A stretch of 41,129 bases of DNA. It comes from Clostridia bacterium. Its GTDB lineage: Bacteria; Bacillota; Clostridia; Oscillospirales; Acutalibacteraceae. Location of the stretch: positions 1-41,129 of the forward strand of contig JAGAOS010000002.1 in assembly GCA_017623575.1 (NCBI GenBank). Direction: 5' to 3'. Within the stretch, counting starts at the first letter, position 1, and the number at the start of each line of letters is the position of its first letter. The notes under the pieces were generated by a model. It was not told the DNA's origin and did no database searches. It saw nothing but the letters and a program-made list of their open reading frames with translations. This document shows, in pieces, positions 1,069-16,303 of this stretch. Made by a program: the position numbers and the translations under genes.

Positions 1069-1228
1069 AATCTGCAAAAATATCATCAATTAGTGTTTCA
1101 TAGTCTTGGGGTTCTTCGTATGTCTGCTTTATCGGTGTAACCTTATCTGCTATCTGTGATAATAAGCCTTTGTTTCTTCGTTCTTTCAAAATCTCTATAA
1201 ACTCAACGTTTCCGTTCTGCTCGTTCAT
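1067..1228 (-). CDS. Small acidic hypothetical protein, 53 aa
   Basis: A 53-codon gene starting MNEQNGNVEFIEILKERRNK and ending DDIFAD. Its ATG overlaps the TGA of the upstream ArdC-like gene (ATGA), a typical translational-coupling arrangement, and its stop sits in a terminator stem. That context is the main evidence it is real. The product is soluble, acidic at its C-terminus and probably helical. No family is recognised. Being coupled to the antirestriction gene, it may be an accessory to it, but this is only inference from position. Confidence 0.65.
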   Translation of the reverse strand: MNEQNGNVEFIEILKERRNKGLLSQIADKVTPIKQTYEEPQDYETLIDDIFAD

Positions 1229-2214
1229 CTTATTTCCTCACTTTCTTTGTTTTTCTGTTCTTCAAGTTCCATTTCCCTGACACACTCTAATATCAAGTCC
1301 GAAGCCTTCTCGGCTTTGGTACTTGCAGAGATTATTTCATTAGGTTTGTCTTTAAGGTATGAAGCCCAACCTTGAATATAGCCAAGGTAATTTTCAGGTG
1401 TATCGCTATCATCGGGAATACACATTTCGGCGCAAACGATTTGACTACCGATTTCGGCAACCAATTCTTCTTTGCTATATTCCTTGTGTGCTGTTTCTAA
1501 ATCAACAACGGTTTTATCGTTGAAGCGACCGAGCGCAACACCTGTGCTATGCACCATTTCGTGTGCAAGGGTTGTAATGTATTCATAAACCGATGTAAAG
1601 TTATGTATGTCAGGCACTCTTATTTTCATATCGTGGGAGAAATATGCCTGTGTTCCGTCCTTAACGATTTGAACCTCAATACCGTATTTTTTACAATAAT
1701 AGTTGAAAAGTCGATTGAAACGGTCAAGTGCAAGTCTTGTTTGTTCGGTTGCTTCTTCGTGGGTAAAGTGTTCAAAATGGAATTTGGAAGGTAGATTCTC
1801 TCCGTTATCACGTTGAACAACATCTTCACGGCTGTAAACGTGGTAATATTTCAAAAACCCTTTTTTGATTTCGTTGCCGTCCTTATCTAACTTCGGTTCG
1901 CCTGTTTCTTCATCAAGAACAGGTGTTGTGTTGTAATAGCAAACGATATTACCCCTTGCACCTTTCCTGATTTGGTATTGTGGGGCGTCTTTCTTTTCGT
2001 TTAATGCCTTAACCATATTAAAGGTTAGGTATTCGTTATTATCAAGCAAAATTCGGTTGATACCCCTGTATGCTTCCATTGTGTTATAACTGTATGCCTT
2101 GTCGGGAGCGCCGAGCGCAAACGGTTTAACCCACCTGAAAGTCTTTCCCTGTTCTTCTGCTTCTTTCATCTTATTTAATATGTTTTCAGTAATTATTTGT
2201 GCTACATTAGCCAT
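1225..2214 (-). CDS. ArdC-like antirestriction protein (ssDNA-binding domain plus zincin-like metallopeptidase)
   Basis: 329 residues from the ATG preceded by GAAAGGG; the longer reading has no binding site. The N-terminal ~130 residues match the ArdC-type ssDNA-binding domain (for example WVKPFALGAPDKAYSYNTMEAYRGIN broken by family-typical N/Y residues). The C-terminal half is a zincin-like protease with AHEMVHSTG (His218, Glu219, His222) and a downstream KEELVAEI segment giving the probable third Zn ligand. Proteins of this family are carried by conjugative and mobilizable elements and protect incoming single-stranded DNA from host restriction. It is divergent from an XRE regulator (2434) and coupled to a 53-residue gene. 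Its presence beside a type I restriction system on the same element is notable. Domain assignment is confident; antirestriction activity is inferred. Confidence 0.88.
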   Translation of the reverse strand: MANVAQIITENILNKMKEAEEQGKTFRWVKPFALGAPDKAYSYNTMEAYRGINRILLDNNEYLTFNMVKALNEKKDAPQYQIRKGARGNIVCYYNTTPVLDEETGEPKLDKDGNEIKKGFLKYYHVYSREDVVQRDNGENLPSKFHFEHFTHEEATEQTRLALDRFNRLFNYYCKKYGIEVQIVKDGTQAYFSHDMKIRVPDIHNFTSVYEYITTLAHEMVHSTGVALGRFNDKTVVDLETAHKEYSKEELVAEIGSQIVCAEMCIPDDSDTPENYLGYIQGWASYLKDKPNEIISASTKAEKASDLILECVREMELEEQKNKESEEIR

Positions 2215-2340
2215 AATAAAAACCCTTTCTGCTCTCCGTGGACTTTTGGAGATAATAATATAGTTGCCAAGCAATATAAGTATGAAAGGCGAATTTATTA
2301 TTTAGTTTTTCTGCATATCTTTTTTAATTTACTAACTAAC

Positions 2341-3172: not shown

Positions 3173-6145
3173 TTATAGGTCTGTTCGGTTAAACTCACGA
3201 TAAAGCATACTACCGAGCGCTGCCATAATGGCGTTATACTTGCTCTTGTTTTGGAAAAGTGATGTAAATGCTTCGGTCTGCTCTACATAACTATCTTGTG
3301 CAACAACATCAAAGGTTTTCGGGAAAATACTTTCTGCGAATACCTGTGGGTTAGAAGTTTTTGCAACCTTGCGGAGTTTATCATCATCTTTTAACCTATC
3401 GTGCAAAGCATAAATCAATACACGGTCGGCGTCGCTGAAATTACCTGCAAACAGTTCATTGATTTTCTGTATAACCTCTTCCAAAGGTTCTTTCTGTTCG
3501 GGAACCGCTTTGCCCTTTGCGCCTGAAGGTTCATAAGGTGTCGGTTTGTCTGTAAGGGCAATTTCACCTTTGAAGGTTTCTTCCAACTTGTAAAATTCAA
3601 GTTTCAATGCACCTTCAAGGTCAATCATCTTTACAGGTTCAGCAGGTATAAGTTTCAGCAGATACGAGCAGAACACATATTCCTTTTGCATTTCGCTATC
3701 GAACATACGGCAAACCTGCGAGATATAACCATACCATTTAATATAGGAACGAACCTGACGCCTGAAATTATATCTATCATCTTGTGCTTTATCGTTGTAA
3801 CGGTCAGCAACAGGTTTCAGGGTAGAGGTCATTTTACCCATACTAACGGCGTCTTGCTTCTTACCTGAATAGTAAATATCGCAAAATGCCTGAATGTCAT
3901 TTGTGGAATAAATGTTGTATGCTCTCAATTCCTTTTGCAACTGATAAATCAGGTCAACATTTACCTCTTGTGAAAGTGCCGTTTCCTGATAGAACGGTTG
4001 GAAGGCTTTTTGAATATCATCTGCTGTATTAACAAAGTCAAGTATAAAGGTATCGTTTTTACCTGCACAAGTTCTGTTAAGTCGGGAAAGGGTTTGAACA
4101 CACTTTACACCACGGAGTTTTTTGTCAACAATCATTGTGTGCAGTAACGGTTCATCAAAGCCCGTTTGGTATTTTTCGGCAACGATAAGCACGTTGAAAT
4201 TGCTGTGGAACTCTGCTTTTGTTTGGTCTTCGGAAATGTGCGAACCGTCCTTGCGAACATTAAGGGACGTTTCGGTGTATTCGTTTCCTTTATCCTTAAC
4301 AGCACCCGAAAAAGCAACCAAAATATCTATGTTGTCATAGTGCTTTTCTTCGATATAGCGCTTTACCTCGTGGTAGTATCGAACGGCCGCTAAACGTGAA
4401 GATGTAACAACCATCATTTTTCCTTTACCGCCGATTGCTTTCGCTGTGGTGGAAAGGAAGGTTTCAACAATGATTTGTGCTTTTTGAGATATGTTGTAAG
4501 GGTGCAAGTCTTCAAAACGGCGAATAACCTTTGCGGCGCGAGATACGGGCACATCAGGGTTATCAGGAATAGTCTTTGCTATCTTGAAGCAGGTGTTATA
4601 GGTCATATAGTTTTGAAGCACGTCCATTATGAACCCTTCCTGAATTGCCTGTTTCATAGAATAGACGTGGAAGGGGTGGAAAGAACCGTCCTTATATTCT
4701 GTTCCGAACATCTCCAAGGTTTGACCTTTGGGTGTGGCTGTAAAGGCAAAGAAGGATAGATTCTTGTGCTTTCCGTGAACAATCATTTCCTGTAACAATT
4801 TATCGTTCAGGTCAAGTTCTTCTTCGGCTTTACCTTCAATTTCTGCATACTCACGAAGCGCCATTTCGGTATCTGCAAGGGCGGTCTTGAGTTTGATAGC
4901 AGATTGACCTGTTTGTGATGAATGGGCTTCATCAACAATAACAGCAAAGTTCTTGCCCTTGGTGTTCTCAACCTCGGAATAGATTACAGGGAACTTTTGA
5001 AGGGTTGTTACAATAATTCTGCAACCACTATTGATAGCGTCACGAAGGTCTTTCGCTGTTTTACCTTCTCCGATTGTTTCAACCGTTCCGAGTGTATGGT
5101 CGAAGGCTGAAATGGTGTCCTGTAACTGTCTATCAAGCACCACACGGTCGGTAACAATGATTACCGATGAAAAGATAGGTGTGCTGTCAATATCGTGCAG
5201 ACTTGCCAAACGGTAGGACGTCCAAGCAATCGAATTTGATTTGCCTGAACCTGCACTATGCTGTATCAGGTAATTAGTTCCTGCGCTGTTGGTCTTAACA
5301 TCGGCAACGAGTTTTCTAACAACATCTAACTGATGAAATCTTGGGAAGATAAGAGTTTTGTTATCTTTGCGGTGGATAAACTTTTGAATTATATCCAAAG
5401 CGCTGTCTTTCTGTAAAACATTCTCCCAAAGGTATGCTGTGGGATAACCGTTCGGGTTGGCTGGGTTGCCCTTGCCTCCGTCATTACCTGCACCGTTAGA
5501 ACCCTGATTGAAGGGTAGGAAGAAGGTATCTCCCTTTGCAAGTTTTGTTGTCATAAAGACGTCGGTTTGGTCTACACAGAAATATGCCAAGATTCGCTTG
5601 TCAAACTGAAAACAAAGTTCTCTTGGGTTACGGTCATACATCCATTGGGTTTTTGCATTATCAACCGTTTGTCCTGTGTATTGGTTTTTCAGTTCCAAAG
5701 CAAAAACAGGTATGCCGTTGAACACAAGAACCATATCAACAGAATTGTTGTTTTCTGCTGTATAGTGCCATTGGCGAACCACATTACAAACATTTTGATT
5801 GTAATGTTCGGTCGCTGTCTTGTTCAGGTTGCTTTCGGGTTTGAAATAGCAAACTCGGAAGGTAATTCCTCTATGCTTAAAACCGTGTCTTAACACGCTA
5901 ATCAAACCTTCGGTATCGCAAGCGTTATTAAAGGCAATACAGAATTTCTTTACAGGGTCGCTATTACAGGTGTTTTCAAACCGCGCCCATTCCTTCGGCT
6001 GCGTGTTCTTAACAAAGTTTATCAGGGTATCGGTAAACAAGGCAACCGAGGGGTCGTATGTATCTGTGGTCTTTGTGTAACCGCCCTTATCGGTCAACAA
6101 AAAACTTTCAATATCTTCTTCAAAACGTCTTTCGTTGGTTATCAT
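3173..6145 (-). CDS. hsdR: Type I restriction enzyme, R (motor/endonuclease) subunit
   Basis: 990 residues, the usual length for HsdR. The N-terminal PD-(D/E)xK nuclease is visible as VDMVLV (Asp137) and FALELKNQ (Glu151, Lys153). The SF2 translocase follows: Walker A GSGKS (299-303), VDEAH (404-408), FTATPKG (near 469-475), then the second RecA lobe with QTGFDEP and QTLSRLNR, and a C-terminal helical region. The complex of HsdR with HsdM and HsdS cleaves DNA lacking the cognate methylation after ATP-driven translocation. The ATG overlaps the stop of the upstream membrane-protein gene (ATGA) and has an AACGGAGG site. It is the last gene of the operon, ahead of a bidirectional terminator. All motifs look intact. 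Confidence 0.97.
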   Translation of the reverse strand: MITNERRFEEDIESFLLTDKGGYTKTTDTYDPSVALFTDTLINFVKNTQPKEWARFENTCNSDPVKKFCIAFNNACDTEGLISVLRHGFKHRGITFRVCYFKPESNLNKTATEHYNQNVCNVVRQWHYTAENNNSVDMVLVFNGIPVFALELKNQYTGQTVDNAKTQWMYDRNPRELCFQFDKRILAYFCVDQTDVFMTTKLAKGDTFFLPFNQGSNGAGNDGGKGNPANPNGYPTAYLWENVLQKDSALDIIQKFIHRKDNKTLIFPRFHQLDVVRKLVADVKTNSAGTNYLIQHSAGSGKSNSIAWTSYRLASLHDIDSTPIFSSVIIVTDRVVLDRQLQDTISAFDHTLGTVETIGEGKTAKDLRDAINSGCRIIVTTLQKFPVIYSEVENTKGKNFAVIVDEAHSSQTGQSAIKLKTALADTEMALREYAEIEGKAEEELDLNDKLLQEMIVHGKHKNLSFFAFTATPKGQTLEMFGTEYKDGSFHPFHVYSMKQAIQEGFIMDVLQNYMTYNTCFKIAKTIPDNPDVPVSRAAKVIRRFEDLHPYNISQKAQIIVETFLSTTAKAIGGKGKMMVVTSSRLAAVRYYHEVKRYIEEKHYDNIDILVAFSGAVKDKGNEYTETSLNVRKDGSHISEDQTKAEFHSNFNVLIVAEKYQTGFDEPLLHTMIVDKKLRGVKCVQTLSRLNRTCAGKNDTFILDFVNTADDIQKAFQPFYQETALSQEVNVDLIYQLQKELRAYNIYSTNDIQAFCDIYYSGKKQDAVSMGKMTSTLKPVADRYNDKAQDDRYNFRRQVRSYIKWYGYISQVCRMFDSEMQKEYVFCSYLLKLIPAEPVKMIDLEGALKLEFYKLEETFKGEIALTDKPTPYEPSGAKGKAVPEQKEPLEEVIQKINELFAGNFSDADRVLIYALHDRLKDDDKLRKVAKTSNPQVFAESIFPKTFDVVAQDSYVEQTEAFTSLFQNKSKYNAIMAALGSMLYREFNRTDL

Positions 6146-6807
6146 TTTTTAACCTCCGTTTCATCTAGAAAAACATCTTTTCTCGTGTGCTCGTTAATGC
6201 TTTCGATTTTATCAAGATAGTAATTTGAAACATTCTTTTCTATCGCTAATTTGTCCTGTTCTTCCTTATCTATCGAAATGCTAGCATTTACAATGAAATA
6301 TGAAACAAACATAAAAGCCAAAGACAGCAGAGAAAGAACATTAATTGTTTTTGTTGTAATCAAGTCATAGGGAATAATTTTTAATGGAGATACAATTATT
6401 TGTATAGAACAGAAAACAATTTGAAACACGGTTAAACAACTAACCGTCTTTTTTAGAAAATAATATATTTTTTTATACTTATCCTTTTTGTTACTGCCTA
6501 GGACTGTTTGTAATTTATCTTCAAACATCTTAGTATCATTGTCAAATAACGAATACGGCTTGAAAACAGTAATATTCCTTTGCAATAAACCAATATAATC
6601 GTCCACGGTTTTTTCATACCGTTTAATATTAGAAAAACATATATTTGTAGTGCTTTTAATTAATTCAAGCAAAGTTAACTCAAAAGAAACAAATGCAACC
6701 GTTACATATATATTTGCACCAAGAATTCCTGGAACACACGCTTGAATAATAGCAATCACAATATAACTAATTCCAATCCCTAAAAACAGATAATTACTTT
6801 TGTTCAA
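6142..6807 (-). CDS. Unknown four-helix membrane protein inside the hsd operon
   Basis: 221 residues from a TTG start; AGGTGG precedes it inside the end of hsdS. Four hydrophobic segments are seen: about 6-26, 33-50, 119-142 and 155-175. They form two pairs separated by a ~68-residue polar, Lys-rich loop, and are followed by a charged ~45-residue tail. This two-by-two layout with a cytosolic middle resembles membrane effectors of SLATT-like immune proteins in outline only; I see no diagnostic motif. It lies between hsdS and hsdR, the slot where some type I systems carry an added toxin such as PrrC or RloC, and its stop overlaps the hsdR start. It is therefore co-translated with the restriction system. 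Function unknown; a membrane-acting defence partner is a hypothesis. Confidence 0.85.
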   Translation of the reverse strand: MNKSNYLFLGIGISYIVIAIIQACVPGILGANIYVTVAFVSFELTLLELIKSTTNICFSNIKRYEKTVDDYIGLLQRNITVFKPYSLFDNDTKMFEDKLQTVLGSNKKDKYKKIYYFLKKTVSCLTVFQIVFCSIQIIVSPLKIIPYDLITTKTINVLSLLSLAFMFVSYFIVNASISIDKEEQDKLAIEKNVSNYYLDKIESINEHTRKDVFLDETEVKK

Positions 6808-6808
6808 A

Positions 6809-8080
6809 TTATTCCACCTCTTTTTTGCCTGTTACATACTCGTATATAACAGATTTTTTGTAACTTTCCATTTCGTCAAGCAGATGTGTTTTATCGGCTA
6901 TCAGTTTGTCAATCTCGGCACATTTGCGGTCAAGGAAATCTGCGATTTCTTCTTGCTCTTGTAATGTTGGAAGAACAATTTTTGCTTTTGTCATAGAATC
7001 AAGTCCAACATTTGCTTGTGTATTTGAGTTTATGTATTGTTTTACATCTTCAAAAAACGCAGTAGATTTTAAATAATAAAACAAGAAATTACCGATTAAC
7101 AAACTTTGTGTGGGTTTAATCGTTAAACAGGAATATGATACTAAAAAGTCCTTGTCTATATCAACAATACAAACCGTTCCGATGGTGGCATATCTTGCGA
7201 AAATTATATCTCCCTTTGTTGCTTTGATTTTTGAAGATAGTGTTTCATAGTCTTCAAGAGAAACTTGTTTGCACACATCAAAATCAACTTGGCTGATTTT
7301 TTCTTTCAAATCGCCTGTCATTAAATAAGGAATACCTGTTTCAACAGAGTTTGGCATATAGTGGTCTATATCGCCAATTTTATCAATGGCTCTAAATAGT
7401 TTTCTTATTTCCCACTCTGCAGGAATATCGCCTATCCAATCAATACCGCTATCTTTCATAGCACGGTCGCCACGAATACCTTTTGTTACCGCTTCGGTTA
7501 TAACCGATTGCTTTAATTTTTTGTATTCTTCAATAGTCGCCTTGGTCTTCTCAATAACGGTATCAATTTCAGCACATTTGCGGTCAAGGAAATCTGCAAT
7601 TCGTTCTTGCTCGGACAAGGGGGGTTCAGGAATTGCTATGTGCTTCATATCTTGCCAATTTGTAGTCCACAAATCATTTACAATACCGTGTCCCCATTTA
7701 TAAAATTCATCGGAAAACATTGTGGAATGAAACAACCAATTATAGTATTTGGGGTTCATTTTATCTCGTGGTGCAAGTATTGTATTGATTAAAGATACCG
7801 AGCCATCATATTCCGATATACCACAAGAACCGCGCCTGTCTGAACGGCTATTTATCGCAAAATCGCCTACACATACTAACTTTCTATCATCGTGGGCGTC
7901 TGTTTTCGCTGCGTTAGCAAGTTGTGGCACAACTCCTTTCATAGTTACAGACAAGGGGGGATAATCTTTATCGCTGACTTTTGTTTTTCTTTCGGTGTAT
8001 TGATTACCGATTTTGATAATATTCCAATCGCTCGGAATATCGCCTATCCACTCAACACCACTATATTTTAATGCTCTCAT
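6809..8080 (-). CDS. hsdS: Type I restriction-modification specificity subunit
   Basis: 423 residues with two target-recognition halves, as expected for a full HsdS. Each half opens with the same signature (SGVEWIGDIPSDW at residue 7, SGIDWIGDIPAEW near 212) and closes with a conserved helical region (ERIADFLDRKCAEID and EEIADFLDRKCAEID) that forms the spacer and dimer contacts with HsdM. The two variable domains recognise the two parts of a bipartite DNA target that cannot be predicted here. The start has an AAAAGGAG site and overlaps the preceding gene by 4 nt. The near-identical central and terminal repeats offer a substrate for domain shuffling. No inverted second hsdS copy or recombinase is present in the window. 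Confidence 0.96.
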   Translation of the reverse strand: MRALKYSGVEWIGDIPSDWNIIKIGNQYTERKTKVSDKDYPPLSVTMKGVVPQLANAAKTDAHDDRKLVCVGDFAINSRSDRRGSCGISEYDGSVSLINTILAPRDKMNPKYYNWLFHSTMFSDEFYKWGHGIVNDLWTTNWQDMKHIAIPEPPLSEQERIADFLDRKCAEIDTVIEKTKATIEEYKKLKQSVITEAVTKGIRGDRAMKDSGIDWIGDIPAEWEIRKLFRAIDKIGDIDHYMPNSVETGIPYLMTGDLKEKISQVDFDVCKQVSLEDYETLSSKIKATKGDIIFARYATIGTVCIVDIDKDFLVSYSCLTIKPTQSLLIGNFLFYYLKSTAFFEDVKQYINSNTQANVGLDSMTKAKIVLPTLQEQEEIADFLDRKCAEIDKLIADKTHLLDEMESYKKSVIYEYVTGKKEVE

Positions 8081-8445
8081 AGTGTATCTCCTTTTTTATT
8101 GAAGATTACAACCACCGCTATTATACCTGCTATCAGCAATATACCGCCTAACGAAGATACAATAACAACCCAATGTGCCGTTATCCATTTTACAAGGGTT
8201 ATAACGCCGTAGGTTATCGCCCATATAACAACAAATACTACTAAACGAATAAGCCAATGGAAAAGACTACCTGCACCGCTCGAACTGATTGAACCGCTAT
8301 CGTACATATCGCCAACAGCCGAAAAGGCGATAGCATAAGCGATTGCACCAATAACAAGCAGAATAACATATTCGTATAGTGCAGAAATGGGTAGCCCTAA
8401 CGGGTCGGTCAATCTATCAAAAATTAAACTAAAAATTTCTCTCAT
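8077..8445 (-). CDS. Unknown three-helix membrane protein between hsdM and hsdS
   Basis: 122 residues. Hydrophobic segments at about 23-45, 63-88 and 92-114 leave a short N-terminus and a Ser/Gly-rich loop (SGSISSSGAGS). The ATG directly abuts the hsdM stop codon and the stop overlaps the hsdS ATG by 4 nt, so translation is tightly coupled to the methylase complex. No family is recognised. It has no catalytic-looking residues and could be a pore, anchor or inhibitor-type membrane protein. Because restriction subunits are normally soluble, a membrane protein in this position is unexpected; together with the 221-residue protein it suggests a membrane-associated function of this locus. Confidence 0.85.
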   Translation of the reverse strand: MREIFSLIFDRLTDPLGLPISALYEYVILLVIGAIAYAIAFSAVGDMYDSGSISSSGAGSLFHWLIRLVVFVVIWAITYGVITLVKWITAHWVVIVSSLGGILLIAGIIAVVVIFNKKGDTL

Positions 8446-10805: not shown

Positions 10806-12134
10806 CTTTTTACGATAATATGTTGATTTACTAATACCGAGGGTTTCCCACGGTTTTTCTTTCGGCGGTTTCTGTTTGAGTGTCTTCGACAATCGGGATA
10901 TGGTCGCAACGGATAAACCTGTATCTGCAGATATTTGTTTGTAGGTCATACCTTCTTTGAGCAGGTGCAAAGCACGGTCTTTCTTTTGCTGTGTTTGTTC
11001 TTTTCGCTTCCTGATTTCTGCATTTCGGGTAAGGTTTACTGATTGCTTTTTGTATTCATCTTCAAACCTTTTAATTTCATCATCGTGAGCTGATAGCATT
11101 TCGTAAAACCTTTTGTTTGTTAGTTTGTATGTTTTTTTCTGTTGGAAGATATAATCTATCTTTTTTAATGGTTCGGAAAAGTCCTGATTTAGTTGTTTGC
11201 AATATTCCTGTGCCTGTGTTATCGGCATAAGCATAACGGCGCTGTTATAGGCAAGAAATAACATAATATCCCTTTTCCCGACACTATCTAACAAAATCTG
11301 CGAATACCATTTGATAAAGGCAAGTCTTTTCAGGTGTAATGCCTGTATGGGATTCCGTTTCTTTTTAGTAGCCTGACCTTTCCGACTTGCTTCGCTGCGC
11401 TTGGCAAAACCTTGTTTTTTCAGTAGTTCTTTTAGTTCGTATTCCTTATAAACAGGGTGTTCGGAAAGTGCTTTGTTTAGTTCGTTTATATCATAACCTG
11501 TGGTGTTGATAATCTCGTGTTCAACTTTTGTTCGGGTGTGGGTGTTCCACGTTCCGACAAGGCGACAAAGGCCGACCGCATTTTTTGACGCCGACACATC
11601 AATTTCAACCTGCTGTTCAAGGTCAGGGTATTCGGTCAAAAAGTCTTTTATGATGATAGCGATTTTATCAATAATGTTGTTATACAAAAATAAAAGTTTA
11701 GGGGAAGCACTATTGATATGCCACCATAATTGAAAGCCACGTCCACTACGAACCCAAATTGAAGGTTTAGGAATGTTAAAAGGGGGTTGTATGTTTATCA
11801 AATCTCTAAAAAAATAAAACTCGAATTTTTCCATAGCACACATTTTGTCAAAAGCATTCTGTCTGCTGTGGAAATCTATGTCAAGGCAGATGTTATTTAA
11901 TGTAAACAACTTTTCTGCACATCGTTTTGAATACGGTTTCAAACCGTTCTTGGTTATGTAATAATCGTTGCTTTTTAATATCTTGAGGTCGCTTATGCGT
12001 TCTTCGATGTTCTCAAAATAACAACAACCTAAACTTTTCATTTCCTTATCTTTGGTTCGGGTAGATATATTAACCATACTTTTGAATTTCTCATTCGGGG
12101 GATAAAGCACGGTAAACACGTCAAATTCGTTCAT
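10794..12134 (-). CDS. Primase-like replication protein with C-terminal HTH
   Basis: 446 residues from the ATG with GAAGGGAG ahead. The N-terminal ~210 residues show the archaeo-eukaryotic primase (AEP/PrimPol) pattern: ICLDIDFH (metal-binding Asp85, Asp87), SGRGFQLWW (130-138) and EIDVSASK with the downstream LCRLVGTWN (Asp179, Arg191). Such proteins on plasmids and integrative elements prime or initiate replication. The last ~60 residues hold a resolvase/Hin-type HTH (MTYKQISADTGLSVATISRL) plus a second short HTH-like GISKSTYYRKKK, which may direct origin binding. The middle is Lys-rich. It lies 58 nt after a terminator that ends the upstream small-gene operon. It is probably the element's replication protein; AEP assignment is motif-based. 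Confidence 0.75.
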   Translation of the reverse strand: MNEFDVFTVLYPPNEKFKSMVNISTRTKDKEMKSLGCCYFENIEERISDLKILKSNDYYITKNGLKPYSKRCAEKLFTLNNICLDIDFHSRQNAFDKMCAMEKFEFYFFRDLINIQPPFNIPKPSIWVRSGRGFQLWWHINSASPKLLFLYNNIIDKIAIIIKDFLTEYPDLEQQVEIDVSASKNAVGLCRLVGTWNTHTRTKVEHEIINTTGYDINELNKALSEHPVYKEYELKELLKKQGFAKRSEASRKGQATKKKRNPIQALHLKRLAFIKWYSQILLDSVGKRDIMLFLAYNSAVMLMPITQAQEYCKQLNQDFSEPLKKIDYIFQQKKTYKLTNKRFYEMLSAHDDEIKRFEDEYKKQSVNLTRNAEIRKRKEQTQQKKDRALHLLKEGMTYKQISADTGLSVATISRLSKTLKQKPPKEKPWETLGISKSTYYRKKKSL

Positions 12135-12192
12135 ATCAATTCTCCCTTCGCAATTTCTCAAAGGAAGAATGATAGATTCAGGTGCATAAATA

Positions 12193-12230
12193 AAAATCGC
12201 TCATAAGCATTTTTGCCTACGAGCGATTTT
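12193..12230 (-). terminator. Intrinsic terminator between small-gene operon and primase
   Basis: A 10-bp outer stem AAAATCGCTC/GAGCGATTTT (12193-12202, 12221-12230) with a partly paired interior is followed on the minus strand by TTTTTATTT. It directly follows the stop of the 80-residue gene and may limit primase expression. Confidence 0.85.
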
Positions 12231-12231
12231 G

Positions 12232-12474
12232 TTATGTAACGGTTATTGTTTTAACCTTTTGCATAAAGTTAAACCCTGTTTTATAAAACTGTGCATTTTT
12301 AATTTCATCTTGCAAGAGTTCTCTATACTTGTCTAATTCGTTTTCCAATAGGGTTATGTGTTCCTTTAACTCCTTTATGGTTTCCTCGTATACCTCTGTC
12401 TGCACGGTATCAAACAGGTCATTCATTGTGCCTGTAACCGCTTTGCGTGTTTGTTCTAATTCTTTATCAGCCAT
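12232..12474 (-). CDS. Small coiled-coil hypothetical protein, 80 aa
   Basis: 80 residues with an AAAGGAAGG site before the ATG. Residues about 30-62 have heptad spacing of Leu/Ile with many Glu and Lys (EETIKELKEHITLLENELDK), predicting a coiled coil. There is no membrane segment. It is the last gene of the minus-strand operon that begins with the MobC-like protein, so it may be part of the mobilisation or replication accessory set. No family is recognised. Confidence 0.7.
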   Translation of the reverse strand: MADKELEQTRKAVTGTMNDLFDTVQTEVYEETIKELKEHITLLENELDKYRELLQDEIKNAQFYKTGFNFMQKVKTITVT

Positions 12475-12494
12475 AGTTTTTCCTTCCTTTCTTT

Positions 12495-12668
12495 TTATTC
12501 TTCAAAGTCCTGAACATCTAAATATACGGCCACATATTTTGATGTTTTGCATTTTCGGGTTTGGGGGTATTCTTGGCTCACGGAATTTATTTGCAAGCCA
12601 CAGTATTCCTCAATGGTTGATACCATTGCTTCAACTTGTTGTGGTAGTCCTGTTATTCTTATTTTCAT
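12495..12668 (-). CDS. Small hypothetical protein, 57 aa
   Basis: 57 codons beginning MKIRITGLPQQVEAMVSTIE and ending YVAVYLDVQDFEE, with an AAGGGAG site nine bases before the ATG. The alternating beta/alpha pattern (KIRITG, then a helix, then KYVAVYLDV) suggests a small ferredoxin-like alpha/beta fold. Small proteins opening MKIRITG are common accessory genes of clostridial mobile elements, though their role is not known to me. It overlaps the 3' end of the upstream gene by 38 nt in another frame, consistent with compact operon packing. Confidence 0.7.
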   Translation of the reverse strand: MKIRITGLPQQVEAMVSTIEEYCGLQINSVSQEYPQTRKCKTSKYVAVYLDVQDFEE

Positions 12669-12906
12669 TGTTTTGTTTCTCCCTTTCTTTATAGTTTTTC
12701 AAAAATGCTTCGGGGGTCATAAGATTAACTAACTTTCCGTCCTTCTTAAACTCAATCAAATAGTATTCTCGTGTTAGCTTCTTTCGCTTAATGATAGCGA
12801 AAATGATTGATATTGTTACCGCTTCGGTCTTCGGTGTGCTTGTTACACCCTGAAATATCAAATCGTGAATTCCACCTGTTGTTTTGTAAATGGATATAGT
12901 TTTAAT
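12631..12906 (-). CDS. Hypothetical protein, about 91 aa, apparent ATT start
   Basis: The open frame runs from just after the MobC-like gene to 12631. The best-placed ribosome binding site (AAAGGGG) stands 9 nt before an ATT codon at 12904-12906, 4 nt after the upstream stop. Starting there gives a natural-looking N-terminus (KTISIYKTTGGIHDLIFQGV). The only conventional start inside, a TTG at 12859-12861, has no site and would cut off that segment. The protein has a hydrophobic beta stretch (AVTISIIFAIIK) and a Lys/Asn-rich tail. Either ATT is used as a rare start or an ATG was mutated. No family is recognised. The coding reading is likely; the start is uncertain. Confidence 0.55.
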   Translation of the reverse strand: MKTISIYKTTGGIHDLIFQGVTSTPKTEAVTISIIFAIIKRKKLTREYYLIEFKKDGKLVNLMTPEAFLKNYKEREKQNNENKNNRTTTTS

Positions 12907-12910
12907 AGTC

Positions 12911-13195
12911 TTATGCCCCTTTCTGCAATAAAGCCTTTATTTCCGTTTTTCGCCTTTTCAGGTCTTCGCGCTCTGCAACGGATAACGAAGCGCTGTTGCT
13001 TAATTGGTTCAGTATTATTTGTAGTTCATTTTCAAGGTATGCTGTATCGCTCTGTTGCTCGGTAGCATAAACCCTTTCTTCAATTAGGTTTAACAACCAT
13101 TTGCTGACCGAGGTGTTTTCTGCAATCGCACACAGTTTGATTTTTGTTTTAAGTTCAGGCGAAACATTACAACGAACATCAGTAAACTTTTTCAT
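12911..13195 (-). CDS. Ribbon-helix-helix, MobC-like mobilisation accessory protein
   Basis: 94 residues with an AAAGGAG site. The N-terminus (KFTDVRCNVSPELKTKIKLC) followed by AIAENTSVSKWLLNLIEERV is a ribbon-helix-helix DNA-binding pattern, and the C-terminal half is a helical segment rich in Leu, Glu and Arg (ELQIILNQLSNSASLSVAER). This is the architecture of MobC/relaxosome accessory proteins that bind oriT and help the relaxase. It is divergent from the MobV relaxase gene across ~230 bp, as in many mobilisation modules. It opens an operon of four small genes. The RHH assignment is good; the mobilisation role rests on context. Confidence 0.75.
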   Translation of the reverse strand: MKKFTDVRCNVSPELKTKIKLCAIAENTSVSKWLLNLIEERVYATEQQSDTAYLENELQIILNQLSNSASLSVAEREDLKRRKTEIKALLQKGA

Positions 13196-13199
13196 ACCG

Positions 13200-13422
13200 C
13201 TTTATCTCCTTTCTGCCGTTATGCTTAATTGCTTAATATAAGAATGTTCGATAATAACGAAAAACGAAAAAATGTACTGTGCGATAGTTACCTTCGGAGA
13301 ACACAACATGAATGTCAAAAACAGGGTTTGGGACGTTCATTATATTGTGTTATTTATAATGCACCGCATTGATAAATAAAAAGTAACATTCTTATATTAG
13401 AAAATTGAAAGGAGTATTTTGT
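13200..13422. promoter_or_regulatory. Divergent promoter region and candidate oriT
   Basis: Between mobC-like and relaxase genes a 15-bp perfect inverted repeat (13234-13248 and 13385-13399, arms beginning TAATATAAGAATG) frames the region symmetrically, each arm containing a TATATT -10-like element directed outward. On the plus strand TTGATA (13369-13374), 18 nt and TATATT (13393-13398) form a promoter for the relaxase. The interior carries short inverted repeats, including AATGC/GCATT (near 13359-13371). The origin of transfer normally lies next to the relaxase gene, so nic is probably here; its exact position is not visible. Confidence 0.5.
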
Positions 13423-14853
13423 ATGGAAAATTACACTTTAACGGTTAGTGTGCATAAAGGCACTTGTGCCGAAGCACACCTGAACCATAACAGGCGAACA
13501 ATCGCTGTTCCACACGCTGACAAAGACCGATTACATTTAGACCGTGCATATATAGATATGAGTGTTGAACAGGCATACCACATTAAATTTGACAAAGCAT
13601 TGGAAGAATACAACAAGGGCAAAAAGCCTTCGCGCCGTATAGAGAACTATTACGAACACATCAAGGCACAATACGAAAAAGGCGAACAAGCCATTCAGCA
13701 GGCTCGCTCTCGTGGTGCAAGCCGTAAAGAGATTGCAAAGTTAAAGATGAAGCGCCCGACTTTGTTTTCGGAAATAATCGTAACTCTCGGTTCGTGCGAC
13801 GCATACTGCGGTTTGTTTGCCTGTGGTGGAAACAAGGAAGCAATAACGGTAGGGATATTAGATGAATATATGGCGTCTTTCCAAAAACGAAACCCACACC
13901 TATTTGTCTTTTCAGCCCATTTGCACCTATCGGAACAGACACCGCATATCCATATCGACTATATACCTTGGACTGATAGAAAAGGCAGGGGTTTACCTGT
14001 CAGGGTATCGGAAAACGGTGCTTTTGTGCAACAAGGCTTAACGAATGGAGAAAGGGGCAATATCGGAACTATTGCTTTTCAGGAACAGGAACGAGACGCC
14101 TTGTCGGAAATTGCACAAAAGAGGGGCATATCTATTGCAGAAAATAAGCACACAAAAAGGCACTTATCCAAGGAAGAATATATCTTAACCAAGGAAAAGG
14201 AAAAAGCGGAAGAAGACCGAAAGGTTATTGACGGTTCGGCTGAAGAGATTGTGAAAATGCAAGATGAGTTTTTGGACTACCTTTCCAAAAGCAAATTTGC
14301 AGAAGCATTTTCCGACCATATTGAAAACATAGATTTAAGGCAAACTGTTCATCAGTATTCCGAACAGGAAAAAGACAACAAAAAAATTCTTGCTCAAAGT
14401 TGGCAAGAATTTAATAGTTGCACGTCCGATTTCTTTTCATCATATCGTATATCAAAAGAATTGCTGTGGAACGAGATTCAACAAGCAAGGAAAACACAGC
14501 GCTATAACAAAAAGCGATTGGAAGATTTGATTTATGATATAACCGATAGCACCGATTTCTTTATTGTAAAAATTTTCAAGTTGTTTATTGCCTTATTTGT
14601 TGCTATAGGTAATGCTCGATTTGAAACCCACCTTGAAGAACTGCAGGAAGCAAACAGGCAATTAAAGGCACAGGCAAAAAAGGTTATGCAACAAAGCAAC
14701 GATGTTTCTCAAACCTTAAAATCACAAGATTTTGATAATATTGAAACGGCGCTGCACGAATACGAATACCGCCTGACCTCTTTAAGTGCATACATTAAAA
14801 GAACAGTAAATGAGGTTTTGACCGAACAGGGAGAAAAGGAAAATTCAAGATAA
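13423..14853 (+). CDS. MobV/Pre-type relaxase (plasmid mobilisation protein)
   Basis: 476 residues from the ATG with GAAAGGAG ahead. It has the MobV/Mob_Pre motifs: HNRR near residue 22-25 (motif I type HNxR) and AHLHLSEQTPHIHIDYIP (165-182), giving the metal-binding His triad. The relaxase nicks oriT and leads the strand into the recipient, using a conjugation machine supplied elsewhere. The rest is helical and Glu/Lys-rich, with one short hydrophobic segment (IFKLFIALFVAIG, ~388-400) before a coiled-coil tail, suggesting contact with the membrane or the coupling protein. No type IV secretion genes are in the window, so the element is mobilizable rather than shown to be self-transmissible. 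Confidence 0.88.
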   Translation: MENYTLTVSVHKGTCAEAHLNHNRRTIAVPHADKDRLHLDRAYIDMSVEQAYHIKFDKALEEYNKGKKPSRRIENYYEHIKAQYEKGEQAIQQARSRGASRKEIAKLKMKRPTLFSEIIVTLGSCDAYCGLFACGGNKEAITVGILDEYMASFQKRNPHLFVFSAHLHLSEQTPHIHIDYIPWTDRKGRGLPVRVSENGAFVQQGLTNGERGNIGTIAFQEQERDALSEIAQKRGISIAENKHTKRHLSKEEYILTKEKEKAEEDRKVIDGSAEEIVKMQDEFLDYLSKSKFAEAFSDHIENIDLRQTVHQYSEQEKDNKKILAQSWQEFNSCTSDFFSSYRISKELLWNEIQQARKTQRYNKKRLEDLIYDITDSTDFFIVKIFKLFIALFVAIGNARFETHLEELQEANRQLKAQAKKVMQQSNDVSQTLKSQDFDNIETALHEYEYRLTSLSAYIKRTVNEVLTEQGEKENSR

Positions 14854-15110
14854 TATTGCATTGTAATTTATATTGTGTTATAATGTAGGTGGTATTTTTA
14901 AGTATGACACCGTTCACGAAACATATCAAACCCTGAAATCAGGGAAAAACACCGCCGTTTTCCCTCATAACTAAAAAATTTTTTGTGCATATTCTTGTGC
15001 AAAACCTTAAAATACCGCATAAATACAGGGTTTGTTGTGATGAAGCTCGACACGGTAAGGCTTTTGAGGGACTTCTCAACCGTTATTTTAAGTAATCATA
15101 AAACATTAAG
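14854..15110. other. Non-coding stretch after the relaxase, possible element end
   Basis: No supportable gene. A 9-bp inverted repeat CAAACCCTG/CAGGGTTTG (14927-14935, 15026-15034), a small hairpin CCCTGA/TCAGGG (14931-14944) and a direct repeat TTGTGCA lie here. The gene content changes from mobile to chromosomal on either side, so the element boundary (an att site) may fall between about 14880 and 15160. No duplicate of this sequence is visible in the window to prove it. Confidence 0.35.
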
Positions 15111-15133
15111 ACCGCCTTTCGAGGCGGTTTTTT
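15111..15133 (+). terminator. Intrinsic terminator downstream of relaxase
   Basis: A 7-bp GC-rich stem ACCGCCT/AGGCGGT closed by a TTCG loop (15111-15128) is followed by six T. Confidence 0.9.
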
Positions 15134-15134
15134 G

Positions 15135-15163
15135 TTGCAGTATTTGTCGTAATATGATATAAT
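15135..15163 (+). promoter_or_regulatory. Sigma-A promoter upstream of hydrolase gene
   Basis: TTGCAG (15135-15140), a 17-nt spacer and TATAAT (15158-15163). The implied ~100-nt leader contains a 6-bp hairpin GTCTAC/GTAGGC with an AACG loop (one wobble pair) followed by CTCTTTTTT, which could act as a weak attenuator. Confidence 0.6.
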
Positions 15164-15271
15164 TCTTTTGGAATAAGGTGAGTCTACAACGGTAGGCGGT
15201 TTGTCCTCTTTTTTGATTACATATAGTAATTTATAAACATATAAGTACAAAAAACAAATCGGGTGAGGAAA

Positions 15272-16303
15272 ATGTATAATAATATTATTAAAGAAAACGA
15301 TATTTGCCGTGCGGCATATAAGGACGGCATTGATGCCTACATAAAAAGGCTGGCAGATGAAAGCTATGCTAAGCGGGACACCTTTATACCAACCGAAAAT
15401 TTTCTTGAAAATATAGAAAAATACCGTACCAAATACATAAAAATGTTGGGGCTTGACCGTATTAACTCCGACGACGCACCCTCTTCTACAATAACAAAGT
15501 TAGGCGAGGATGAGGACGCTGTAATCTACCGTGTTACCGTTTATATCACGCAGGAAATTCCCCAGTTCGGTCTTTTATTTGTACCCCACGGAGTTAAGCA
15601 GGAGCCCCTTGTTATAGTACAGCACGGTGGCGGCGGAACCCCCGAGCTTTGCTCTGATATGAACGGAAAAAACAACTATAACCACATAGTTCGCCGTGTG
15701 CTGAAACGAGGTTTTATTGTCTATGCGCCACAGCTTTTAATATGGAACAGCGGCGAGTCCCTTCCCACCGCCCCCGGTCATCCAATTCCATACAATAGGG
15801 GCGCGGTGGATAAGGATTTGAAGCATTACGGACTAAGCATAACCGCCCTTGAAATTAAGGGCATTATGAACGCCATTACCTTTTTATCTGAGTTGCCCTT
15901 TGTTGAGCAGGAAAACATTGCTATGACGGGTATATCCTACGGCGGATATTTTTCCCTCTATACAATGGCGGCGGATACTCGCATTAAGGCGGGATTTTCA
16001 AACGCTATTTTTAACGATAGAAATATATATTCAAGAGCCGATTGGTGCTACCAAAATTCAGCAAACACCTTTCACGATGCCGAGGTAGCCGCCCTTTGTG
16101 CGCCCCGTAAGCTCTATGTTGCGGTGGGAAAAGAGGATACGGTTCAAGACTATCAAGCCGCCATTCCCGAAGCAGAGCGAGTAAGCAAATATTTTGCCGC
16201 AGCATCTGCTCCCCAAAACTTTGTATTTGACCTTTGGGAGGGTGGACACACCGTACCCGATACCGATGAGGGATTTGATTTTATATTTTCTGTTTTCAGG
16301 TAA
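15272..16303 (+). CDS. Alpha/beta hydrolase (esterase-like)
   Basis: 343 residues from the ATG that follows GTGAGG; a GTG nine bases upstream is possible but overlaps that site. The fold is shown by the oxyanion region VIVQHGGGGTP, the nucleophile elbow GISYGGY (Ser near 226), an acid in VAVGKEDTV and a His in WEGGHTVP. There is no signal peptide, so it is cytosolic. The arrangement resembles dienelactone hydrolase or acetyl-xylan-esterase-like families that deacylate small molecules or sugars; the substrate cannot be told. It stands alone after a sigma-A promoter and is followed by a terminator. It may be the first chromosomal gene beyond the mobile element. Confidence 0.85.
   Translation: MYNNIIKENDICRAAYKDGIDAYIKRLADESYAKRDTFIPTENFLENIEKYRTKYIKMLGLDRINSDDAPSSTITKLGEDEDAVIYRVTVYITQEIPQFGLLFVPHGVKQEPLVIVQHGGGGTPELCSDMNGKNNYNHIVRRVLKRGFIVYAPQLLIWNSGESLPTAPGHPIPYNRGAVDKDLKHYGLSITALEIKGIMNAITFLSELPFVEQENIAMTGISYGGYFSLYTMAADTRIKAGFSNAIFNDRNIYSRADWCYQNSANTFHDAEVAALCAPRKLYVAVGKEDTVQDYQAAIPEAERVSKYFAAASAPQNFVFDLWEGGHTVPDTDEGFDFIFSVFR

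Follow-up and report, generated by a model that had tools for sequence, protein, structure and literature searches.

A putative membrane protein family keeps the hsdM/hsdS junction in three lineages of type I restriction operons

What are two membrane proteins doing between the subunit genes of a type I restriction-modification (RM) system? The question is raised by a 41,129-nt stretch of a Clostridia bacterium genome (GenBank assembly GCA_017623575.1, contig JAGAOS010000002.1, positions 1 to 41,129; hereafter the window), in which a six-gene operon on the minus strand reads XRE-hsdM-3TM-hsdS-4TM-hsdR (Table 1). The names 3TM and 4TM stand for proteins of 122 and 221 residues and give their numbers of hydrophobic segments, which are hydropathy counts and not the outcome of topology experiments. 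With the characteristic Pfam and PADLOC domains of hsdM, hsdS and hsdR in one operon, the locus is on domain content a type I RM system; the NCBIfam models TIGR00348 (hsdR, 198 bits, cut-off 284.55) and TIGR00497 (hsdM, 90.3 bits, cut-off 242.75) scored below their cut-offs. Gaps of 1 nt separate XRE from hsdM and hsdS from 4TM, whose start codon is TTG, the TAA of hsdM is followed at once by the ATG of 3TM, and the 3TM/hsdS and 4TM/hsdR junctions are 4-nt ATGA overlaps. Purine stretches resembling ribosome sites, judged by eye, lie upstream of the gene starts, and an alternative internal ATG could give a shorter XRE protein. This gene order with its tight junctions, the three segments of the smaller protein and the two segment pairs around a charged loop in the larger one had all been described in the initial annotation, and they stood up to our inspection of the junctions and to hydropathy analysis.

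The distribution of 3TM is the strongest lead. A scan of GTDB contigs with HsdM returned 183 relatives, and our slot counts rest on the best 80 of them, with HsdM 77-90% identical to the window's in the best segment; they come mostly from gut and rumen Clostridia, and many from metagenome bins. Six of these 80 loci contained a 3TM homologue (L016, L022, L033, L037, L038 and L042), and all six homologues lay between hsdM and hsdS. If the slots were chosen freely, at the rate at which inserted (cargo) open reading frames (ORFs) of at least 100 aa fall in hsdM/hsdS (23 of 72), this outcome would have a probability of about 0.001, or about 0.01 when the near-copies L033/L038 and L037/L042 are each counted once.

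Searches blind to hsd genes gave a similar picture. In a sample of the family, 3TM occurred in 4 of 398 genomes (G000, G114, G623 and G788, the window included; G623 has the same gene coordinates as L042), each time in hsdM/hsdS and once beside an HsdM that is only 57% identical to the window's. Four matches came from viral contigs, three of them in that slot (L107, L108 and L109) and one elsewhere (L110). The single match among 50,697 phage records (L130) also lay in hsdM/hsdS, but with a split frame; over most of its length the L130 record shares about 90% DNA identity with L115 (of G114). A sample of the class gave matches to 3TM in 6 of 391 genomes, the window included, and supplied three distant relatives outside hsdM/hsdS pairs: no hsd gene was found near two of them (L111 and L112), and hsdR fragments lay about 5 kb from the third (L113). 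Altogether, 8 of the 12 clear matches were in hsdM/hsdS, as were 8 of the 9 bearing the PLGLP motif described below, the window being included in both counts; no 3TM was seen in hsdS/hsdR among the examined loci. Homologues mostly outside hsd operons would have spoken against the tie to restriction that the initial annotation proposed; the PLGLP-type proteins, with one exception, kept to these operons, and the distant relatives did not.

No 3TM was detected among 72,556 plasmid records, and plasmids gave no match to either window protein or to the L109 3TM. A search of 60 relatives' genomes for 3TM and 4TM returned nothing besides the window's own, and searches of viral contigs with a single 3TM, a single 4TM or the 4TM pair gave no match. 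Several candidates were not counted as clear 3TM proteins: L114 (G335) has three internal stops, the match in G414 covers 39 residues within a 1871-residue frame and is probably due to chance, and the short hsdM/hsdS cargoes of L065, L066, L080 and L084 scored at most 4.1 bits.

The operons that carry 3TM belong to three lineages. Compared with the window HsdM, that of the 3TM loci is 81-90% identical in the window's own lineage, 57-58% identical in L129, the sole member of its lineage here, and 44-45% identical end to end (about 40% in local matches) in L107-L109 and the related L115 and L130. The 3TM junctions were mostly near-zero or overlapping, the exception being L016, in which another gene stands between hsdM and 3TM. 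By these comparisons, 3TM is probably a dedicated cargo of the mlo position (the hsdM/hsdS junction, after the Campylobacter ORFs discussed below), the slot that it occupies in all three lineages.

Within that slot, the identity of 3TM tracks that of HsdM weakly (rho 0.31, 55 non-independent pairs). The window protein is 56-59% identical to the 3TM proteins of the 45% lineage and 45% identical to that of L033, though HsdM of L033 is 82% identical to the window's. On an HsdM tree of 86 rows, which leaves out L115, L129 and L130, at least four changes are needed to explain the 3TM label, and starred branches force three of them; the label is clustered more than in any of 500 shuffles. The 3TM tree shows no exchange between lineages: a weak branch (36/83) has all seven rows of the window's lineage on one side. 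The TIR proteins of L016 and L115 are 64% identical over 139 residues, both lie in hsdS/hsdR, and each accompanies a 3TM in hsdM/hsdS. This pair suggests that cargo moves between lineages yet keeps its slot, the 3TM tree being too weak to prove it. Within the 45% lineage, the operons L107 (3474-15420), L109 (3476-15403) and L115 (832-13117) share an order of their own, with an AAA_13 gene directly before hsdM, 3TM in hsdM/hsdS and an EVE-AAA_5 gene after hsdR, the two domains having been scanned in L109 only. The AAA_13 gene of L109 may be RloC-like and its EVE-AAA_5 gene McrB-like, and operons of this type perhaps combine three defence layers.

The hydrophobic segments of the window 3TM span residues 27-45, 68-86 and 93-111, and the family shares the motif PLGLP...E...HW..R...WA..Y. 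The ratio of nonsynonymous to synonymous substitution rates (dN/dS) was 0.09-0.20 in six of the seven computable pairs, three of the seven being near saturation (dS of at least 1.7), and 0.39 in the near-identical pair L037/L042. No Pfam family matched 3TM at cut-off, NCBIfam and PADLOC gave no match up to E 1, and PHROG gave none for three PLGLP-type proteins and two distant relatives. As judged from these values and library searches, 3TM is an unnamed protein family under purifying selection.

The slot itself belongs to a wider pattern. Among the 80 loci, BLAST found XRE homologues at the hsdM start in 12; hsdM and hsdS could be placed in 76, and hsdR as well in 58. The junctions were bimodal, either closed, mostly within about 10 nt, or opened. 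At hsdM/hsdS, 21 of 76 loci were opened by at least 200 nt and 20 had an ORF of at least 60 aa; at hsdS/hsdR, 37 of 58 were opened to that extent, every one with an ORF. Both slots were occupied in 10 of the 58 loci, hsdM/hsdS alone in 5, hsdS/hsdR alone in 27 and neither in 16. Both internal junctions are accessory-gene slots of the mlo/rlo type, filled by variable ORFs that are absent from relatives with closed junctions.

BLAST linkage sorted the cargo, 77 ORFs of which some short frames may be spurious, into 45 families, which makes 45 candidate families from the junctions of a single type I subtype. Of the 77 ORFs, 32 were scanned with Pfam and 13 matched a family at cut-off, the names being TIR, YhcG/DUF1016 PDDEXK nuclease, RhuM, AbiJ_NTD4, DUF4238, FRG, Schlafen AlbA_2, DUF5677, GmrSD, Fic, DUF4062, RhuM-Fic and ABC-3C CTD6. 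PADLOC, applied to nine of these cargoes, added the names SoFic, ThsB-like and HEC-06/Orf5. The YhcG family, in contrast to 3TM, was found in both slots (three times in hsdM/hsdS and six in hsdS/hsdR).

Several further cargoes deserve mention. L016 holds four cargo genes in one operon (11741-15668), an unnamed 252-aa protein and 3TM in hsdM/hsdS and a TIR protein and a two-segment membrane protein in hsdS/hsdR. The 252-aa protein is one of an unnamed family of 252-257 aa that uses both slots (L016 11741-12499, L017 11759-12523 and L053 13122-13895), the L016 and L053 copies having no Pfam match. Cysteine pairs resembling zinc ribbons, judged by eye, mark an hsdS/hsdR cargo of 320-327 aa (L037 11763-12731, L046 4337-5320, L059 13045-14007 and L084 4990-5973) whose L037 and L046 copies had no Pfam match. 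Another hsdS/hsdR cargo, of 210-302 aa and with hydrophobic segments, occurs in L017 (14082-14990), L041 (10981-11616), L080 (4451-5083) and L091 (8438-9091); its L017, L041 and L091 copies matched no Pfam family.

The second membrane protein of the window behaves differently from 3TM in that it was seldom found again. The segments of 4TM form two pairs (residues 7-25 and 28-46, then 121-139 and 155-173) around a charged central loop with 15 lysines and arginines and 9 acidic residues, and the overall balance of lysines and arginines (24 versus 2) strongly predicts that both ends and the loop are cytoplasmic. Pfam gave no family at cut-off, NCBIfam and PADLOC no match up to E 1, and PHROG one insignificant match (0.066) for the window copy. 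The one clear relative, L096 (genome G187), is 43% identical over 208 residues, occupies the same hsdS/hsdR slot and had no PHROG match; the hsd-blind family search with 4TM returned these two and one weak match, in G684. We rejected as kin the G684 frame (E 6.5e-5, two internal stops), the eight weak matches, three of them with internal stops, that a search of the 391 class genomes gave besides the window's copy (E 7.7e-4 to 9.7e-3), and minus-strand frames of L090 (E 0.0048) and L076 (E 0.18). The assignments SUR7, DUF4481 and Ion_trans for the window proteins fell below Pfam cut-offs.

The initial annotation had treated the two membrane proteins as a set. The hsdM/hsdS slot of L096 holds an unrelated soluble protein of 252 aa without a Pfam match, and no other 3TM locus gave a match to the 4TM model; 3TM and 4TM, never together in any other locus examined, are thus not a set. 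We regard 4TM as a rare occupant of hsdS/hsdR, one of many interchangeable rlo cargoes. Nor is membrane cargo general to such operons, and to that extent the proposed tie to restriction holds for the slot-specific 3TM alone. ORFs with a hydrophobic segment were present in hsdM/hsdS in 11 of 76 loci and in hsdS/hsdR in 14 of 58. Cargo with at least two segments was no more frequent in hsdS/hsdR (6 of 49) than among flanking ORFs (71 of 533), and the excess in hsdM/hsdS (8 of 23, p=0.0095) consists mostly of 3TM itself, which accounts for 6 of the 8. We therefore discarded the idea of a general membrane enrichment. SLATT and S-4TM proteins are effectors of CBASS-like systems. Kinship to SLATT, Abi or holin families, which had also been raised, was not found at the sequence level: no library match at cut-off linked the window proteins to SLATT or S-4TM, and neither matched a PHROG or Pfam holin family or SieB (PF14163). 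PDB sequences contained no relative of either protein, the only matches having E values of 0.68 and above.

With moderate confidence, and judging from gene arrangement and sequence, we propose that 3TM and 4TM act as accessory defence proteins in the membrane and are produced along with the restriction enzyme. Their translation would keep pace with that of the restriction subunits, under one XRE-type regulator that they presumably share, and they would provide a second, membrane-level defence, either by blocking the entry of phage DNA, as SieB-like proteins do, or by arresting the cell when restriction fails. 3TM keeps the hsdM/hsdS slot in three lineages, as would be expected of a partner of the RM enzyme, and so a link between its activity and the M/S complex is probable, whether 3TM is a guard silenced by M/S or a tether; it may be kept silent or recruited as PrrC is by EcoprrI. 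The simplest reading of 4TM is that it acts independently, as a membrane effector or an exclusion protein. A further step, possible but doubtful, is that 3TM is a dedicated membrane subunit or guard of type I enzymes, which would make those that carry it a class working at, or reporting to, the cell membrane. If 3TM does work with the enzyme, type I restriction would have a partner at the membrane, and this would matter for how restriction encounters entering DNA or how its failure is sensed.

Several observations weigh against accessory membrane defence. Four clear 3TM relatives (L110, L111, L112 and L113) lie outside hsdM/hsdS pairs, so the wider 3TM family can do without a restriction enzyme. 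In L110 (3279-4772), a PLGLP-motif 3TM follows a 366-aa gene bearing a helix-turn-helix domain on an 11-kb contig without any hsd gene, possibly as a free-standing two-gene unit. The 4TM family rests on two sequences. Among the cargoes scanned with Pfam, 19 of 32 had no family match at cut-off, and the names of the others are annotations and not functional tests.

The main rival, which we judge unlikely, makes 3TM (and perhaps 4TM) a tether that holds HsdM and HsdS, and possibly HsdR, at the inner face of the membrane, where they would meet DNA on entry. Its appeal lies in the position of 3TM, which within hsd operons was found only between hsdM and hsdS in all three lineages, and in a balance of lysines and arginines that, although nearly even in the window copy (3 versus 2), weakly favours a cytoplasmic C-terminus and a cytoplasmic conserved G..HW..R loop in 9 of the 10 sequences counted. 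EcoKI associates with the membrane, a point on which our literature search found nothing. An existing example of defence at the point of entry is SNIPE, a membrane-bound nuclease (PMC13190303). A tether fits poorly, however, with the many same-lineage loci, the majority, that have no membrane protein in either slot, with the weak tracking of HsdM divergence by 3TM divergence, and with the relatives L110, L111 and L112, near which no hsd gene was found.

We give slightly less credit, and consider it improbable, that the two slots are simply tolerated insertion or recombination points and that their occupants have functions unrelated to restriction. The spread of cargo over so many families, many of them unknown, is what such hitchhiking would produce, and mobile-element genes adjoin the operon. 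An ArdC-type protein, with an anti-restriction N-domain and a zincin metallopeptidase domain, is encoded about 900 bases past the end of hsdR, and a Mob_Pre relaxase gene also lies in the window; together they suggest that the operon sits on a mobilizable element. Passive insertion would not, however, predict the strict slot choice of 3TM, the selection acting on it or the defence-like families found in the same slots. That the membrane proteins instead regulate the RM enzyme, for example by restraining HsdR on host DNA, without being directed at phages, is very improbable, for although translation in step with M, S and R and the single slot of 3TM in three lineages would suit such a role, the proteins are dispensable in most same-lineage relatives, in which the junctions are either closed or occupied by other genes.

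Table 1. Genes of the RM operon and mobile-element genes in the window
Feature	Coordinates	Strand	Basis or remark
XRE/HTH_26 regulator	10477-10196	-	operon's first gene; Pfam HTH_26 2.6e-13
hsdM, type I adenine methylase subunit, 582 aa	10194-8446	-	Pfam HsdM_N, N6_Mtase; PADLOC MTase_I 3.5e-215
3TM, 122-aa three-segment membrane protein, hsdM/hsdS slot	8445-8077	-	hydropathy, relatives
hsdS, specificity subunit, 423 aa	8080-6809	-	Pfam Methylase_S (two stretches); PADLOC Specificity_I 1.8e-109
4TM, 221-aa four-segment membrane protein, hsdS/hsdR slot	6807-6142	-	hydropathy, relative
hsdR, restriction/translocase subunit, 990 aa	6145-3173	-	Pfam HSDR_N, SWI2_SNF2, ResIII, T1R_D3-like
ArdC-type gene	1225-2274	-	ArdC anti-restriction N-domain, zincin metallopeptidase domain
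Mob_Pre relaxase gene	13405-14853	+	

Embedded genes in defence operons have repeatedly proved to be phage defences, and a preprint by Payne et al. (2024) reportedly treats embedded defences of this kind. Word matches in the available portions of open-access papers returned no description of 3TM or 4TM. The architecture is not new, since the hsd loci of Campylobacter jejuni are known to carry intervening ORFs, named rlo when they lie in hsdR/hsdS and mlo when they lie in hsdS/hsdM, which passages of PMC5183652, PMC2610378 and PMC4619093 credit to Miller et al. (2005). These are the same two positions with variable ORFs as in the loci described here, and RloF (GmrS/DUF262), which those passages place between hsdS and hsdR, has a counterpart in the GmrSD protein in that slot of L059. 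Neither a 3TM nor a 4TM family is named in the passages, nor is any cargo confined to a single slot in several type I lineages, and the present hosts, unlike those of the Campylobacter loci, are mostly gut and rumen Clostridia.

Other embedded genes resemble the window proteins in position more than in kind. PrrC, the best-known example, is in the account given by part of PMC12707154 a second-line effector embedded in ecoprrI, a tRNA anticodon nuclease activated when the enzyme is inhibited; any comparable gating of 3TM or 4TM is something we infer. Unlike PrrC and RloC, the window membrane proteins match no AAA domain in Pfam; no search was aimed at the anticodon nuclease motif itself. The TgvAB genes inside a type I system of Vibrio cholerae VPI-2 have anti-phage activity (excerpts of PMC11411939) and likewise defend beside restriction, but they encode a type IV modification-dependent enzyme and not membrane proteins. 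A membrane protein in the slot of 4TM is provided by viral contig L003, a further relative outside the 80 loci, whose hsdS/hsdR junction holds a SieB membrane exclusion protein (PF14163, 8.5e-23); such a protein can thus occupy that slot, although it has two segments against the four of 4TM and is not found by the 4TM model. In an Escherichia coli island, DarTG2 lies inside a type I locus headed by the small regulator RptR and protects against phages, according to passages of PMC12255303. Its cargo is a toxin-antitoxin pair and that of the window consists of membrane proteins, and XRE is compared with RptR by position only; in both loci, a small regulator comes first, followed by hsdM, hsdS, cargo and hsdR.

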